Origin: Gonapodya sp. JEL0774
Taxonomy: Eukaryota > Monoblepharomycota > Monoblepharidomycetes > Monoblepharidales > Gonapodyaceae
Direction of reading: 5' to 3'
Assembly: GCA_027604505.1 (NCBI GenBank)
Contig: JADIIX010000081.1
Span: forward strand, 29,468 to 93,467
DNA length: 64,000 bases
The notes under the pieces are model-generated. The model saw nothing but the letters and a program-made list of their open reading frames with translations, did not search any database and was not told the DNA's origin. A program made the position numbers and the translations under genes. The stretch's first letter is position 1; every line of letters starts with the position of its first letter. Shown here one piece after another: positions 30,142-40,040 of this stretch.

Positions 30142-32158
30142 TCAAATGTTGAGTCCCCTGCCCTGCCCACCGTCGACAACCAAGTTGGCGCCCGTGATGT
30201 AAGTTGCGGCGGTCGAGAGGAGGAAAACTACCGAGTTGGCGATTTCTTCCGGAGTGCCCATACGACTGCATTGTGGAGGCAAGCAGTGTGGACGTGTTTT
30301 AGTGACGAAACCACGAAGACCCATACCCCCTCACAAGAGCTCAAAAAGCACGAAACACGTTCTCGGGGCACTCACCCCATCGGATTCAAAGACAATATCC
30401 TGTTGTACCGCTCCGGGTTGGAGATCTTGGCTTTGCCCCAGACGCCTCCTTCGAAGTAGACTGGACCGGGCGCGACGGTGTTGAAGCGGATTTTCTCTTT
30501 TGCGTAGGTGTTGGCCCATTGTTCTGCACAGCGGGGATAAGAGATGGAAGGAAGTTCGATAGTTGGGCGAGAGAAGAGCCGTAAGATGATGAGCGGCCTG
30601 TGGGAGCAGGGCGAGTGAAAGACGAGGAGAGAGACTTACGTGTTTGGTGGGTGAGGGCGGCTTTAATGGGGCCGTCTGTTGAATGGCATGGTAAGTCTCG
30701 TCAGACCGCATCCCCACCAACCCAACCTGAAACACCCCTCGCAAAACTCACACGGCCTCAGATCCGACACCTGTCTCGCCGACACACTGGTAATGTTCAC
30801 CACGGCCGCATCACCGCGTCTGGCAACACTTTCTCTCAGAGCCGGGAGTGCCGCTTCCACGACGCGGACGGTGTGGAGGAGGTCGACTTCGAACATGGCC
30901 GTCCAGTCGGCTTCGGAGGTGCCGTTGCCGAAGGCCTGAGGGAGGCGTGGAGCGGAGGGGAGGAGATTGAGAAAGAGAGCTACATGTTTCCTGGGAGGGA
31001 TGACAAGAGCAAGCACAATACACCACGCTCTCCTATTCAAGCGCGCACTCGTCATCCAGCATCCGAACATTGTCTACGCTTGGATCTCCTCAACAAGCAC
31101 TGTCCATCCGATTCCCAATGACATTCTACAAATATTCGAAACCCCCCTTCTTTCCCCATGATCAACTCACAGACACGTTACAAACGATCAAATCCAACCC
31201 TCCGAACTCCTTGGTGACGTCCGCAACCCACGCCTTGATCTCGTCCCCGTTTCGGACATCAACGGCGCGGCCTGAGCCCTTGACTGAATTCAGAAGTGAA
31301 GAAACGACGGGTCAGGGAATGCGAGTGGTGACGGCAGAGGGGATAGGCGTCAGAGGGTGCAGTAAAGATGGGGAGGTTTGTGTGGTGGGTCGACCAGCAC
31401 TCAGGCTTTACAACGTTCTCCGTGCTGCTCGCGATCTATTTTAGACAGGCAGACAGACTTATGGTAGGCCCCTTTCAGGTCTCTTTGTAGTTCCCGTCCC
31501 TCATCCCGTTCCAGCTTGTGGCGAAAGCCATCCCATCCAGTATCACGACCAAGTTGACAAATCTGAATCGACTTTCCAGTGCGCTCGTGATATTCACCTC
31601 CGAACGCTTGAATCTCCTTCACGGTCGAGTCGATTTCCGCCTGGTTCCTGGCGCAAATTGCGACATCGACACCTGGTGGGTAGTGGCAAGAGGAAGTATA
31701 TTCACGGTTGTTTTCAGTAGAGGGGACAATCACGACGTTGGAATGATTAGGAGATCCGAGAGTTCAATGACGGAGGTCAAGCAAAGAGCCGTATGTCAAC
31801 GATTGGAAAGAACTTTTGAGAACGAACCTTCCTTGGCAAGCAGGAGGGCCGTCGATCGACCGATGCCTTTGCTGCCGCCCTAGATGAGAGGGGTGGGCAG
31901 ATAAGAAGAATGGGTTTCCAGTGGTGTGATGTGATTAATTCCACGAACACGGCCCAGTCAGCGCGAACCCCATCAAGGGCGATTTCACAAGGTGTGATTC
32001 AGCAAAGTGGATAACATCGTTTGCATTGTGCGATTTTTTAGGCACAGAACGGGATCCATTAGAGAGAAGAGTGAGGTGTGCTGACTGGGCCAACGGAAGC
32101 AAATCACACCGAAACATACGGTGATGAGAGCCTTAGCGCCTTTGAGTCCGAGTTCCAT
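30142..32158 (-). CDS. Short-chain dehydrogenase/reductase
   Basis: The start at 32158 gives [13 protein letters not shown], and the intron joins it in phase to [18 protein letters not shown] (from 31879), the NAD(P)-binding TGxxxGxG-type motif. Following exons read [20 protein letters not shown], a middle strand, [32 protein letters not shown] (catalytic Ser region), [18 protein letters not shown] (with a Tyr-Ala-Lys-Glu-Lys near the active site) and [20 protein letters not shown] to [12 protein letters not shown]. That is a classical SDR of the FabG/3-oxoacyl reductase-like type, about 260 residues once spliced over six or more exons. The substrate is not predictable. Introns are longer and less certain than elsewhere. 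Confidence 0.8.
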
Positions 32159-32818: not shown

Positions 32819-35800
32819 ATGAAGCTCGAGCGTCAGATCAAGCTGCGGTGCGTGCATCTGCCACTTGCGACCTGCGCTGCCCCTCACCGTTGACACCTCG
32901 CCCCTCTCATCCAGTCTAGTCCTCCCCGTCGTCCTGGGCATGCTCGTGCTTGGTGGGCTTCCTTTCCTTTTTCCCACCCAAGAGTCATTCCTTACCATTT
33001 GCATCAAGCACAGGGGCTGCCACCGTCGCTCTGATTTACACGCAGTCGTCCTCGTGGATCGACGAACTCGCATCCATCATCGATGACTTGCAAGTGCGTC
33101 AAACCAGGACATCTTCTCTGCTGTACTTTAACGCCTCTTGTGAATCATTTCCAACCAACATTCATGTCAAAACTCAACGCCCCCAGATCACAGCCGTCCA
33201 GTCCCGTGCGTACGGCAAGGCCTCATTCGTCCAGTCATTTGTCTCTTCTTTGGTCCTCGACGTGCGCGTGCTTGCTCTCTATGCCGCCTCGGCCACGCGG
33301 GGAACACTTGGGACCATAGTGCGGTAGGTCTAGTCCCACACTCCTGCGCACCATGTACTTTATGATCTCTCACTCCGACTCTCTCCCATAATTTGGCGTA
33401 TCACATTTCCATATTACTCACGTGTCCTGCGCCCTGCCACCACAGACCGATCCCGTCATTCTTTCAGCTCCCACTGCTTGACTCGCCTTCCGTTGCCACA
33501 CCGATGCCCCCAGAGACGTCCCGCCCTCTGTACTCGTCGTACTGGTCCGTCAACATATCCACCTCGGCTGACCTGGCCGCGGCGGCCAACTCAAGCATGA
33601 ACAGCACTGTTCTGGACATGGTGTTCAGACCGTTGTTCCTCGACAAGGTGAGTCGGACTTCTGAATATTGGACTTTGAGGTGAGAAGCGGGGAAAAAGGC
33701 TATGTGCCGTTGATAGTGTTCGGAAGGGGATTGCAGCAATTCCGGAGAGTGGACAATGAGCATTCGAGATGAGTTCGCCAGAGAAAGACCCATCAGATCC
33801 ACGCACGGTTTGGCTCTGCGGGAAGAGGGAAACTAAATTCCTTCATGTCCCTTGCCTGTCCTCGTCCCACCACAAAAAAACCGCTCACAACCCTTTCTCC
33901 CACCTGACCTCCTCACCGCACAGCCCGGCACCAACCAGCTGTACACCGGCTTCTCCGACACAGGCATGCGCAAATTCCCTTACATATTCGCCTCGTCCCC
34001 GAACGCTTCGTTCCGGACCCAGCGCTTCTGCGACGCGCCTGATCTGGACCCGTCGATTCGAGGAAAGGTGGGGTTCATTCCGGCGTGCCGTGGGTGGTAC
34101 AGATCCGCTGTAGACGCGGTGCGGAACGCGTCCACCACAAGCACGGTAAATACCGTGGATGGCGTCGGGCCGTGGGTCATTGTTTCGCCGTATGTGGACG
34201 CGACCACGGGGACGGTGATGTGAGTGTCCGGGTCTGCGCCTTGCGTGGTGGGGCACGGGGGTCTGTACGAGTACTGCCCCCGCAAGATCCTGACTGACCA
34301 TCGCCCGGTTTGGGGCATTCGTGTGAAGCATCTCAGCATCGCAAGCGTTTCTCGACGCGAGCGGTGTCGTCGTCGGCGTGGCAGCGCTAGACGCCAACAT
34401 GGACTTGTTCCTGTCGACTTTTTCGCAGAGTAGCAAGGTAGAGTTTGTGCCTCTGACTCAGGTCTAATGCAGTCAGCTTATCTGTGCGCCTCGACAATCG
34501 CCGGCCGCGGGCTTGATAGATCTTGGACAATGGGTACTTGCTTGTTATGGACACGAGTGGCAATCTTATCGTCTAGTGAGTGCACCCGACACCACCCAAG
34601 CACCCCCGTGCGCCCTCACGACGAAACAACAATCACCCAACCACTCAGCGATCAAGCGCAAGCCCGGGCCAAAAATATTTCCATCTACACCTCCATCACC
34701 AACATCCTCTCCACCGACTTCCCGGGGGACGCGCCTTCCGCGGTGGCCTTCCTCGCCTCGGCGCAGCAATCGGCCACGACAAAAACGTCCACTACTTTCC
34801 TTCGCGGGGGACGTCTCTGGCGCCTCGCGGCGACGACGGTCCCGGACACATCGTACCTCGCTGTCGCGCTCGTGCCCGTATCCGATCTACAAGCCCTATC
34901 GGACTCCATGCGTGCAAAGACCGCCACATTCGGTGCGGCAGCGACGGCCGTTATCGCGGTGCTCCTGGTGGTCGCGGCATACGTAGCGAACAGGGTCAGC
35001 GCTCACATTGCGGACAGGGTGCTGAGGCCCGTCAAAAATCTCACAGACTTCGTCAACCTCGTCACGTCGGGAAATTTGGATCATGAGCCTATTGTGAGTG
35101 CGGCGTTCGTGCGTTTGTGTGCGTCAATGATCGACATCAATAAATGTCCCGCTCCCCACTCTCTGACCTCCCACCGCTCGAAAATCAGAACTATGGGCCC
35201 GTCAATACAGAGATCGACACCATAGGCAAGAACTTCCGCGAGCTTCTGGTAGCAATGCGGTTTGGTAACACGGCGTATTACGCGGGAGATCTCAACAAGG
35301 CTCTCGACAGTGTGAGTGCTTTCTGCGTGCCAGTGTATTTTCTTAGAGCCACCATGTACTGAGTCGTCGCTCCCTCGTGGTTCAACATGCTAGTATCTGG
35401 CAGCGGAGAGGGTCATGACGGAATTCAACTCGGAGAGGGGAAAGGGAGTGTGTTGGAACAACCTCGGTAACGTGTACTCCCAGATGGACAGGTTGGTGGG
35501 CAACTCTCCCGTTATACTGGTGAAAAAGCTCGTTGGAGAAGTATTGACGATCAACGCTCCATTGTTCTTAGGCAGGATCTAGCTCTTATTCATTACAATA
35601 AGGCTATTGACAGTGGTAAGTGTCGCATATTGATGACCTTTACCAAACTCTGAGCCTGCTTCCCCACCAGCTGAGCGACTTCTTGCCACCGAGCAAGATC
35701 CCTCCAAGCGAAGCGCTCTGCAAAGCACTTTAGCCGAACGACTCATGAACAAGGGCGTACTGTTCAAGGTCACAAACAAGCCTCCCGAAGAGTCCGTGGC

Positions 35801-37069
35801 GCTCTTCGAGCGAGCCATAGAGCTACACCGGCTCAATGACAGCGTTGATGGAATAGCACAGGTGTCGGGGAACTTGGGCCAGATGTATCTGGAGCGTAGA
35901 AACATGCCCAAGGCGGAGGAGTGCATTGTAAACGCTTATACCGAAATCAAGGACCGACAGAGGCCGGTGGCGTTGCAATACGCGGCAATGAACATGTAAG
36001 TGACTTGTGTGACGACATGTGTCGGATGAAGTACTGATATTGACGGTTGTGATGGAACAGGGGTCTTCTTGCTGAAGCACAAGGACACAAGGAAGATGCA
36101 CTTGCATGGTTTTTATGTAGGCAACCCAAAATGCTGTGATTTTTTCCCCTGTTTGTGCTGATTCTCGAACTCAATACCATGCTTGAAAGATGTGCTCCAG
36201 CGTTTTGAAGTCTCTGTCCATTATGTGCAGAAAAAGTGCACACAGGAAGTGATTCGGCTCTGTCAAGATCCCGCGATCAACAAGCCCGACATAGCTCAAA
36301 CCGTATTCAAAGTTGGCCGATCGATCTTTCCTGACCTTACCATCGATGGTGCACTAGCACCCATTGGCCAAGTCACAACTCACATTGATCCACAAGCTAA
36401 TGTGGGTGCTCGTAAAGTCGCATCGCTACCTAAAATGACGTTTTTGATATTCGTTTTCAGGTCCAGATGCGCATGCTCATGGCGGGGCGCAAGGATCTTG
36501 CTTTTACGTTGGATGTTTCAGGCTCTATGAGCGGCACGTTCATTCATCAATGTCGCACCTCTATCAACGAAATCATTTACAATCATTGCGGGCAAAATGA
36601 TCGGGTGGCGCTTCTTGTGTTTGATAGCACAGTCCGACAAGTGTTCGATTGGACGTTGGCAACCGACCGACAGAAGGCGGTCATGCGCAATCTCGTTGAT
36701 AACAACACTCCAATTGGAGGAAGTACTGCATTCTGGGATGCACTTATGGCTACCGCCAAGCGCATGGCGGCAGTTAAAGATCACAAAGGCCGCTCGCTCT
36801 GGATCTGCACCCTCACTGACGGAGGGGACAATGCGTCAAACAGCACGTCTAAGAGTGTCATCGCTGAACTCCAAAGATTGCCTCAGGTGGGCCTCATCGC
36901 CATCACAGTCGGAGCCCTCGGCAATGAGGCGGAGATTCGCAAAGTGTGCGAGGCTAGCCGTAATGGGGGTCTTTTCATTCGCGCCGATGCGTCTGGGCAG
37001 GGCATCCAATCCGCGTTTAGGGCCGCGATTCAGCACATGGAGGATTATGCTGTCCAGCACTTCAACTAA
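32819..37069 (+). CDS. dCache-HAMP-TPR-vWA transmembrane receptor
   Basis: About 16 exons give roughly 955 residues. A signal anchor (LPVVLGMLVLGGAATVALIY) is assembled across two introns. An extracellular dual Cache domain follows (about residues 45-365) with LYTGFSDTGMRKFPYIFA, then FIPACRGWY and VSPYVDATTG, and VVVGVAALDANMDLF. A second span (AVIAVLLVVAAYVANRV, about 395-420) leads into a HAMP linker (RVLRPVKNLTDFVNLVTSGN). Several TPR-like repeats follow (NNLGNVYSQMDRQDLALIHY, AQVSGNLGQMYLERRNMPKA). The C-terminal 200 residues are a von Willebrand A domain with a full MIDAS: DVSGSMSG, GGSTAFWDAL and TLTDGGDN. The plan is an outside ligand sensor linked to an intracellular metal-dependent adhesion or scaffold domain. 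No kinase or cyclase output exists. The small exon near 33735 has an unclear donor. Confidence 0.85.
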
Positions 37070-38138: not shown

Positions 38139-40040
38139 CTAGGCGGCTGAGCCTGGCACACCACTCTCTGACAATTCGACAGTTTCATCAGACAGAGGTG
38201 GCAGGTCGGGAACCTTGACTACAACGTTCTTTGAGTGGACAGTGCTGTTCCAGTCTGGCATCTCACTGTTCTTGTAAAATGGGTTCGCCTTCCCTTGGGG
38301 AGCTTTCGTGGTTGCGCGCAGCGCCTCGATCATCGAGTAGAACCTCTGAGATAACTCTTCAGTCTCGTCAACACGTGCAAGGGAGATGCCTGTGCTCCCT
38401 CCCTGGTTGGGATCAACACCAGCGAACAAATCGCTTTCGCCCATGTTGCGGCTGATCTTCTCGGATTCTTTACTGAGTCGAACGAGAGGCTGTGCGGCAG
38501 AGTTTGCGAGGATGGCGACGGAGGTCTTGAGAGGGACGAGGGAAGGAGCCTGTAAGATCGAGCGACGTCGCAAAGTGGAACGATGTGGCTCTTACCGAGA
38601 CAATGATCAAGACGGCAAAGAATATGCCCACTGAGATGCCGCTGTGCGTTGCCAAGATGCTGTTCATCCGCGCTTGAACGTTTTGGACGGGGATGTTGAC
38701 CAGAGCCATCGGGAACGCTGACACAGACACGTATGAGGGGCTCGTCTTTCCGTTGGTGATGTTCAGCACTTTATAAACCTGGGGTCATCGAACCATGAGC
38801 TCCCACAAGAAGGCGAACTCGCGAAAGTCGCAAGACCAACGACCACTTACAACAAGATAGTTGTCGCTGGAACTTGGGTCCTTGTATACTTCTGACGTGG
38901 CAACACCTGGACTTGCACTTATCATCCGATTCCAAAGATCGGCGTTGATAGTTGGATTCGTTGCATTTCTGTACGTGAAGGGGCCCTCCGCTGTCCACGT
39001 CTTCAAGTTCCAAGAAGGATTTGACAGCGCAATTCCATTCATCTGGTACAGCGACATGGAGCCGCCCTTGACTGCTTGCGACTCCAGTGTCGCCTTCAAC
39101 GTGTCAATAACGACGTCGACCCCAGCGACTCCTATTATGGCGCCTGATGACGCGTTCCGGATCAATGACGAGACGGTAATCTCCCATCCCTGGCCAAAAG
39201 CATCGCGGTATGGGTCCGTCACGACGTACGTGGAAGTTGGATTGGCCTTTGCGTCCTTGTACCAAGGACGCAGTCTCGGGTCGTAGCCCGTCTGGTTTCT
39301 GCTGTCGCCCGTGCCTGGGTACCGACGGTGAACGCCACCTTCCTCGAATCCGACGTACAAAGTGATCACATTGGGGTTCAGTTGGTACGAAGACCGGAAG
39401 ATAGGATCCATGTGGGCTGTAGCATCGACAATGGCCTGCTGAGCGAGGGAGAGAGCGGGAGGCTCATTTCCGATGACGTTTGGTATGAGGTAGGTTGAGT
39501 GCTGGAGCGAGATTGTCCACCCGGAATATCTAGAGCCTGTTGGGGAGACCACGGATCCTGCCGCCTGAAAAGGGAAGTTATGATTAGAGTGAAGAGAGAG
39601 CTGTTAACTTGACTTGGCGAGCAAACCTGAATGCCAGTGGAACTATCGAAATACGAAGGAACAGTCGCGAAAGGTTGATCGGTCCTGAATGTAACACCAG
39701 CCGCCTGACTGATCAACAATGAAATGCTGCGCGCTATCTTATTGAGGTCGTTTTCGAACAGAGAGGCTGCGTCGTTAACGCTTAGAGGAGGAAAGAAAGG
39801 TTAGATCGGTGCATCATTTGAAATGGATGATCAACGCTATTACTTTGCTGTGAGTGCCTGCGTGAGCTGTGCGCTTAGCGCATCGTTCGTCGTGCTCCCG
39901 ATATTCCCGATGATTGCGCCGAGAAATCCAAGCGACAGAGCTTCTACCAGGATGAGGAAACCCAGGGAAACGGCCAGGCCCACGATAATGAATTGTGTAC
40001 GCAGACTATAGTCGGTCCATCGACTTTTGCTGGCCGGCAT
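38139..40040 (-). CDS. dCache-HAMP receptor without output domain
   Basis: The start at 40040 (MPASKSRWTDYSLRTQFIIV) precedes the first span (FIIVGLAVSLGFLILVEAL). The dual Cache domain follows over three exons: NDAASLFENDLNKIARSISL, VTFRTDQPFATVPSYFD, then the ligand-binding half with GYDPRLRPWYKDA, STYVVTDPYRDAFGQGW and IIGVAGVDVVIDTL. A second span (GISVGIFFAVLIIVS) leads to a HAMP-like segment (QPLVRLSKESEKISRNM), a short helix (DETEELSQRFYSMIEAL) and a disordered tail. In all, about 555 residues. The spacing Y-x4-R-x-W-Y plus the later Tyr, Asp and Asp match the amino-acid-binding signature described for dCache_1AA domains. No kinase, cyclase or other enzyme follows, so it probably signals through a partner. 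Confidence 0.85.

Follow-up and report, generated by a model that had tools for sequence, protein, structure and literature searches.

The gene at 32819–37069 of the window, a 64,000-nucleotide stretch of Gonapodya sp. JEL0774 (Monoblepharomycota; assembly GCA_027604505.1, contig JADIIX010000081.1, positions 29,468 to 93,467 of the forward strand), raises the question of how a signal sensed outside a fungal cell might be passed on by a receptor with an unfamiliar output. Known outputs of receptors with HAMP domains are of the kinase, cyclase, GGDEF and methyl-accepting kinds; here a preliminary description, made from the DNA letters, had read an extracellular dual Cache (dCache) sensor and a HAMP linker followed by tetratricopeptide repeats (TPRs) and a von Willebrand factor type A (vWA) domain. 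That a single dCache-HAMP-TPR-vWA gene occupies this place is confirmed by the spliced model and its relatives, and the architecture is, as judged from alignments, that of a protein family of two zoosporic fungal phyla and the Asgard archaea, not a single-gene oddity. Together with an adjacent dCache-HAMP partner that lacks an output domain, the receptor would signal by regulated protein binding, a reading to which a probability of roughly 0.6 is given.

The receptor gene and its domains

Rebuilding from the DNA returned one spliced gene with the 16 exons first described, with 15 of 15 introns bounded by GT and AG, a start at 32819 and a stop codon ending at 37069 (Table 1). The deposited entry, hypothetical protein HDU93_009324 (983 amino acids, aa), agrees with the 952-aa model letter for letter, save that it retains intron 3. 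Since the stretch matching this intron is absent, in the alignment, from both relatives of the receptor in Rhizophlyctis rosea (Chytridiomycota; 967 and 969 aa, found by a protein search with the vWA domain), the 16-exon model is probably the better of the two, and the retention a probable annotation error.

Pfam and hydrophobicity give the order of parts as it had been read: a short N-terminus, a first transmembrane (TM) segment, the dCache sensor, a second TM segment, a HAMP-like linker, TPRs and the vWA domain. Pfam scores were obtained for a 951-aa draft that differs from the final model at the exon-12 boundary; of the four domains proposed, TPR_12 (49.2 bits, cut-off 30.1) and VWA (49.4, cut-off 23.8) pass, while dCache_1 (39.0, cut-off 45) and HAMP fall below. 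PF02743 (dCache_1) is precomputed for HDU93_009324, and the cut-off is exceeded by both R. rosea relatives (50.7 and 45.1) and by both Asgard receptors tested (63.4 and 53.8). The HAMP linker stands by position and orthology, with a sub-threshold score, and is called HAMP-like here; it follows the second TM segment directly, keeps Pro443 in 49 of 49 proteins and is modelled as a long helix in a low-confidence region, and one of two Asgard partner proteins passes Pfam HAMP (28.8), the other lying below (24.1). No kinase, cyclase or methyl-accepting signalling domain was matched in the window protein (Pfam, E up to 1). Because there are two TM segments with positive flanks, the sensor is predicted to lie outside the cell and the vWA domain inside, a weak third hydrophobic window (aa 260–278) being present besides the strong ones at aa 12–30 and 410–428.

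The complete metal ion-dependent adhesion site (MIDAS) first noted in the vWA domain is borne out: D768, S770, S772, T839 and D870 are present and recur in three of three fungal and 46 of 46 Asgard proteins (D870 in 45, with one gap). Because the site is kept in all 49 proteins, that gap aside, selection seems to act on metal-dependent binding. R488 and N491 are, like Pro443, kept throughout, and G497, N528 and N531 are likewise invariant. An AlphaFold2 model from nine sequences has a mean predicted local distance difference test (pLDDT) score of 58.7, with the TPRs and vWA domain mostly at 67–91 and the sensor mostly below 60 (parts up to 81); a model from three sequences (pLDDT 49.7) was not used. 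Foldseek ranked TPR proteins highest (SPINDLY, O-GlcNAc transferase), with vWA chains (inter-alpha-inhibitor, CMG2, alpha2delta 6jp5_F) and the TPRs of LGN/Pins lower, and whole-chain TM-scores were low (query-normalised, at most 0.22 among the best 50 matches listed).

Relatives in chytrids and Asgard archaea

The two R. rosea relatives carry precomputed Pfam dCache_1, TPR and VWA and align end to end with the window protein at 34–35% identity. They emerged from the vWA search, in which 191 candidates yielded four matches (the receptor itself, the R. rosea pair and a bacterial SLH-TPR-vWA protein); in two earlier protein searches, with some 8000 candidates scored in each, the receptor matched only itself. 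These searches constitute the coverage of eukaryotes, and that of bacteria consists of a strict pattern scan and plasmids, so that bacterial absence is not established. The scan, which ran two strict peptide patterns over 84,980 prokaryotic species, each represented by a single genome, returned 44 stretches with seven relatives, all from Asgard archaea, the close relatives of eukaryotes (four Heimdallarchaeota, two Hermodarchaeota and one Kariarchaeota). At six of the seven loci an open reading frame (ORF) covers sensor, linker, TPRs and vWA domain (L023 cut at its start); in the Kariarchaeota genome (L027) the pattern match falls in the TPR stretch of another protein, and the family gene is also present in that genome as a truncated copy. 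The six Asgard proteins aligned are 22–25% identical to HDU93_009324.

A family profile built from three fungal and six Asgard proteins (length 896) matched, at a threshold of E 1e-60, 66 of the 227 genomes of the phylum of the L021 genome, taken as Asgard; matches are near full length (profile position ≤34 to ≥801 of 896) in 50 of these and shorter in the rest. Among 392 relatives of the L021 genome, the 66 that match at this threshold are all already among the 227; provided the 392 contain the 227, no match comes from the 165 others, which lie outside the phylum. No receptor relative was found among 40 pattern matches in viral contigs, and none of the 103 plasmid records that match parts of an Asgard receptor covers 80% of it; with the Gonapodya neighbour gene discussed below, one plasmid record matched weakly. 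The architecture is not unique to the window gene. Its lack of a prior description holds in so far as none was found in the open-access literature (subscription papers not covered), and the available passages of PMC4822843, PMC9901441, PMC10104139, PMC5847659, PMC10343646 and PMC12852372 do not mention the family.

Within the Gonapodya genome (25.0 Mb, 381 contigs) a HAMP profile gave no match at E 1e-3, so the profile is unfit for finding relatives there. Two other vWA places were considered as paralogues and set aside, a RING-vWA protein on contig C3 and a vWA-Hint-like one on C61, both so named by eye. With tblastn at E up to 1, a 51-residue vWA piece on C3 is 39% identical to the receptor, and no receptor match was found in the examined stretches of C61 and C71. 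At about 97268–97519 of C61 (L019) the fungal vWA protein runs, again by eye, into its Hint-like region.

Full-length homology between the fungal and Asgard proteins is demonstrated, at the level of profiles, by the HAMP-to-TPR junction, the vWA domain and the domain order; it rests on these because the dCache and TPR segments alone do not discriminate. Profiles were built from Asgard sequences alone and scored on fungal proteins and controls: the junction profile gave 65–71 bits for the three fungal proteins and 25.6 for the best of five bacterial TPR controls, and the vWA profile 92–100 bits for the fungi and 53.8 for the best of three controls (the bacterial SLH-TPR-vWA protein), two of these three being partial ORFs. 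Two results count on the other side. With the dCache profile of the Asgard receptors, the Gonapodya neighbour (106.0) and the R. rosea proteins (92.3 and 80.4) score higher than a bacterial control (79.3) but the window protein scores lower (73.7), so that this segment alone does not separate the fungal receptors from other dCaches; and the TPR profile gave fungi 91–94 bits with controls reaching 87.9. In a quick sensor tree the three fungal receptors group with 21 Asgard receptors (Shimodaira–Hasegawa-like approximate likelihood ratio test, SH-aLRT, 95), apart from 20 partners (93) and six bacterial dCache proteins (86), and forcing them to join the partners is disfavoured (approximately unbiased, AU, test, p 0.036). 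A quick tree of full-length sequences puts the fungi near four Asgard sequences, at the end of a long stem (2.18 changes per column), with a support of 100 for the fungi and these four against the other 42, a position that the long branches make unsure.

Of the other accounts of this architecture, the least probable is a join made on paper, whether of two distinct genes or through mis-splicing of the model. The gene model was drawn from sequence alone, carries 15 introns and disagrees with HDU93_009324 at intron 3; the R. rosea proteins, from another phylum, are nonetheless collinear with it from N- to C-terminus, which argues that the receptor is not a fusion artefact, and the Asgard relatives hold all domains in single ORFs, so that no split between HAMP and TPR or between TPR and vWA is seen. 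Hardly more probable is an alpha2delta-like protein with its vWA domain outside the cell, acting on a channel. Alpha2delta subunits share a dCache and a MIDAS-bearing vWA domain with the window protein, and their vWA domain is among the phmmer and Foldseek matches; to our knowledge, neither HAMP nor TPR occurs in them. The passages available of PMC9901441 confirm that Cache and vWA co-occur in these subunits and place the vWA domain, extracellular in a glycosylphosphatidylinositol-anchored protein, within the first dCache, whereas in the window protein it is C-terminal, after the second TM segment, the HAMP-like linker and the TPRs. Independent assembly of the same order in fungi and Asgard archaea has slightly more in its favour and is still very improbable: all four domains are common, two of them do not discriminate and the fungal stem is long, yet the junction and the vWA domain are specifically common to both groups, R488, N491, G497, N528 and N531 do not vary across the 49 proteins, and an output-less dCache neighbour is present in Gonapodya and Asgard archaea alike.

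The adjacent output-less receptor

At the first six Asgard loci the gene behind the receptor encodes a TM-dCache-TM-HAMP protein without an output domain (Pfam run on two). Sixty of the 66 matching genomes were examined, the remaining six (G184, G139, G084, G071, G050 and G187) holding fragment hits; the first set comprised 46 loci from 45 genomes, of which 45 are informative, L091 ending at the receptor gene, and the second set 15 loci (eight full-length, two cut at the 5′ end, L114 and four sensor-less). The partner lies directly behind the receptor on the same strand at 53 of 53 informative full-length loci (45/45 and 8/8), with a gap of −86 to 19 bp across the 45 loci, where the partner matches neither TPR nor vWA. 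Both receptors cut at the 5′ end by contig ends also have a partner behind them; at L114, which was not counted, stops break the receptor and the following frame, and a partner-like piece lies behind (127 bits over 122 residues). In four genomes (L110, L111, L112 and L113) the receptor has 575–577 aa and no sensor match; two TM segments joined by a short loop can be made out by eye ahead of HAMP-TPR-vWA, and the 146–154-aa product of the gene behind it has a partner match confined to TM-HAMP. Joint absence of the sensor is to be expected if receptor and partner work as one unit, and appears to be the best sign that they do.

An arginine-decarboxylase-like gene, so called from a phmmer match to L021:9071-10864, lies behind the partner at 28 of the 40 loci with a readable next gene; the three of these 28 proteins scanned with NCBIfam (L021, L066 and L070) all score below curated cut-offs, and their substrate is a guess. 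The Hermodarchaeota partners (L023:2700-4652 and L025:7601-9349) have a zinc ribbon and HEAT repeats after HAMP (Pfam for L023, by sequence for L025), perhaps a second output. Upstream, a further gene family (L070:1559-3001) has phmmer matches at 32 of 46 Asgard loci; by eye it is propeller-like with a zinc-ribbon-like C-terminus (four looked at), and the one protein scanned had no NCBIfam match.

The gene next to the Gonapodya receptor, tail to tail with it, encodes a TM segment, a dCache with the motif YxxxxRxWY...Y...D, a further TM segment and a HAMP-like tail, with no TPR, vWA or other output domain matched (Pfam), and is likely, though not proven, to be its functional partner. With the Asgard partner profile this neighbour scores 161.3 bits, while the sensor of the Gonapodya receptor reaches 84.2 and none of six bacterial dCache controls exceeds 94.6. 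In the ranking by the Asgard receptor profile the fungal receptors come first (147.0, 137.4 and 126.4) and the neighbour is in fourth place (123.9). Used to query the 227 genomes, the neighbour matches partners, receptors and some other places. Adjacency by chance seems unlikely, since a Pfam dCache_1 search of the genome gave the neighbour and only one other place (more may exist, the window gene itself having been missed). That other dCache-type gene, at about 83391–83702 of contig C71 (L020), shows a TM segment and a HAMP-like tail by eye.

Several findings tell against partnership and leave some room, as an unlikely but serious alternative, for a neighbour that arose by duplication, or that is simply an unrelated dCache gene, beside a window protein acting alone. 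Trees fail to place the neighbour (AU p 0.70 with partners, 0.69 with receptors), a clade of it with all fungal receptors is not rejected (AU p 0.052), and single-sequence scores put it nearer the partners at 28 of 45 loci, as they do one bacterial control at 26; its Pfam HAMP score of 13.0 bits is below cut-off, and the Gonapodya pair is convergent, not an operon, and known from this one fungus. Its descent as a copy of the Gonapodya receptor sensor alone is, by contrast, rejected (AU p 9e-7), and the partner-profile scores and the few dCache_1 matches in the genome likewise favour a functional partner. Asgard and Gonapodya proteins resemble each other in domain order, junction signature, MIDAS and adjacent output-less dCache-HAMP gene; the Asgard receptor genes differ in being intronless, in forming a same-strand pair, in having mostly Glu for the pocket Arg and in often lying near a decarboxylase-like gene. 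Elsewhere in the window, an ORF at 30663–31073 on the minus strand has a Pfam adh_short (short-chain dehydrogenase) score of 19.1 bits, below cut-off.

Table 1. Receptor gene, its predicted parts and the neighbouring gene (positions in the window)
Feature	Position	Strand	Details or basis
Whole gene	32819..37069	+	16 exons, 952 aa; spliced model from DNA
Exons 1–8	32819-32847, 32915-32952, 33014-33093, 33187-33323, 33446-33647, 33924-34219, 34329-34437, 34520-34575	+	
Exons 9–16	34649-35093, 35189-35311, 35394-35495, 35576-35615, 35671-35995, 36061-36116, 36190-36401, 36461-37069	+	
Intron 3	33094..33186	+	in frame, 93 bases = 31 codons, inside sensor region; retained in HDU93_009324
First TM segment / signal anchor	32919..33036 (includes intron 2)	+	aa 12-30; Kyte-Doolittle window 2.56
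Extracellular dCache sensor (predicted)	33049..34916 (includes introns)	+	~aa 35-405; Pfam, alignments
Second TM segment	34929..34985	+	aa 410-428; Kyte-Doolittle window 2.43
HAMP-like linker	34989..35248 (includes intron 9)	+	~aa 430-484; Pfam HAMP 15.1 bits, below cut-off
HAMP-to-TPR junction signature RFGN..YY.G....A...Y..A....NN.GN	35249..35486 (includes intron 10)	+	~aa 485-536; alignments
TPR superhelix	35255..36311 (includes introns)	+	~aa 487-720; Pfam TPR_12, model helices
vWA domain, MIDAS D768-S770-S772, T839, D870	36494..36991	+	aa 762-927; Pfam VWA, conservation, Foldseek
Neighbouring second receptor	38139..40040	-	5 exons: 40040-39844, 39780-39627, 39564-38851, 38778-38596, 38549-38139; 552 aa

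Ligand, output and descent

The amino-acid motif in PctA comprises, in the source passages available, Y121, R126, W128, Y129, Y144 and D173, PMC9901441 giving it with one x fewer; its positions were placed by eye in the present proteins. All six residues are present in the Gonapodya neighbour, and Asgard partners have Glu or Asp for the motif Arg in 35 of 43 proteins, with the other positions mostly kept. An acid at this carboxylate-binding position suggests a cationic ligand in Asgard archaea, perhaps one connected with arginine or agmatine, a guess that agrees with the decarboxylase-like gene next door; the Arg of the fungal pocket suggests an amino acid.

In the proposed mechanism, the extracellular dCaches, as homodimers or as heterodimers with the partner, would bind a small ligand of the amino-acid or amine type, and the ligand-induced change would reach the TPR superhelix by way of the second TM segment and the HAMP-like linker, altering HAMP/TPR packing. 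This would expose or reposition the cytoplasmic vWA domain, freeing its metal site to grip an acidic side chain of an effector and so recruit it, the output being regulated protein binding in place of a kinase, cyclase or methyl-accepting domain. The effector is proposed because a vWA protein, ArnB, acts in archaeal signalling and because the metal site of the alpha2delta vWA domain meets an aspartate of the channel (PMC9901441, in the part available). Weighing against this mechanism, HAMP is below the Pfam cut-off of 25 in all five receptors tested (15.1 in the window protein, 20.8 in Asgard L025), and the amino-acid motif is incomplete in the receptors themselves: the window protein has FxxxxRxWY...Y...D, with Phe for the first Tyr, the R. 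rosea receptors have Ala for the motif Asp, and the Asgard receptors have Glu for the motif Arg in 31 of 46, their other motif positions being mostly kept.

Each of the known systems resembles a part of this design. Bacterial dCache_1 chemoreceptors of the PctA type, whose output is a methyl-accepting coiled coil, share the TM-dCache-TM-HAMP front half and the R-W-Y of the amino-acid motif; the window protein differs in its TPR-vWA output and in keeping the motif only in part. The ArnB/ArnE vWA proteins of Sulfolobus provide an archaeal example of a signalling protein with a metal-holding vWA domain (PMC12852372); there the vWA domain lies in a beta-sandwich with a helical bundle, the partner is the FHA protein ArnA, and the available passages mention no sensor, HAMP or TPR. 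Fungal Cache histidine kinases of the Sln1 type likewise place a Cache sensor outside a fungal cell and differ in their kinase output.

As to descent, the passages available of a 2016 survey ascribe eukaryotic and archaeal Cache domains to horizontal transfer and limit Cache in plants and fungi to histidine kinases (PMC4822843); Cache is also described as far rarer in archaeal than in bacterial histidine kinases (PMC5847659, in part). A speculative proposal, doubtful on present evidence, is that the Asgard ancestor of eukaryotes already possessed the two-protein system and that it was inherited vertically and survives in zoosporic fungi, the unrooted tree being unable to tell inheritance from transfer. 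If true, this transmembrane sensory pathway, whose output would recruit proteins in a metal-dependent way, would have come down from archaea and would not have been acquired from bacteria, as has been assumed for eukaryotic Cache receptors. The receptor design occurs in Asgard archaea and in two zoosporic fungal phyla, probably with the same partner, against the histidine-kinase-only fungal Cache of the 2016 survey, and the decarboxylase-like neighbour and the acidic pocket residue offer a concrete guess at a ligand. The TPR-vWA output module would add a further way of carrying an outside signal across a membrane, and the family offers a single, well-defined multi-domain character by which to test whether sensory receptors came to eukaryotes from their archaeal forebear.

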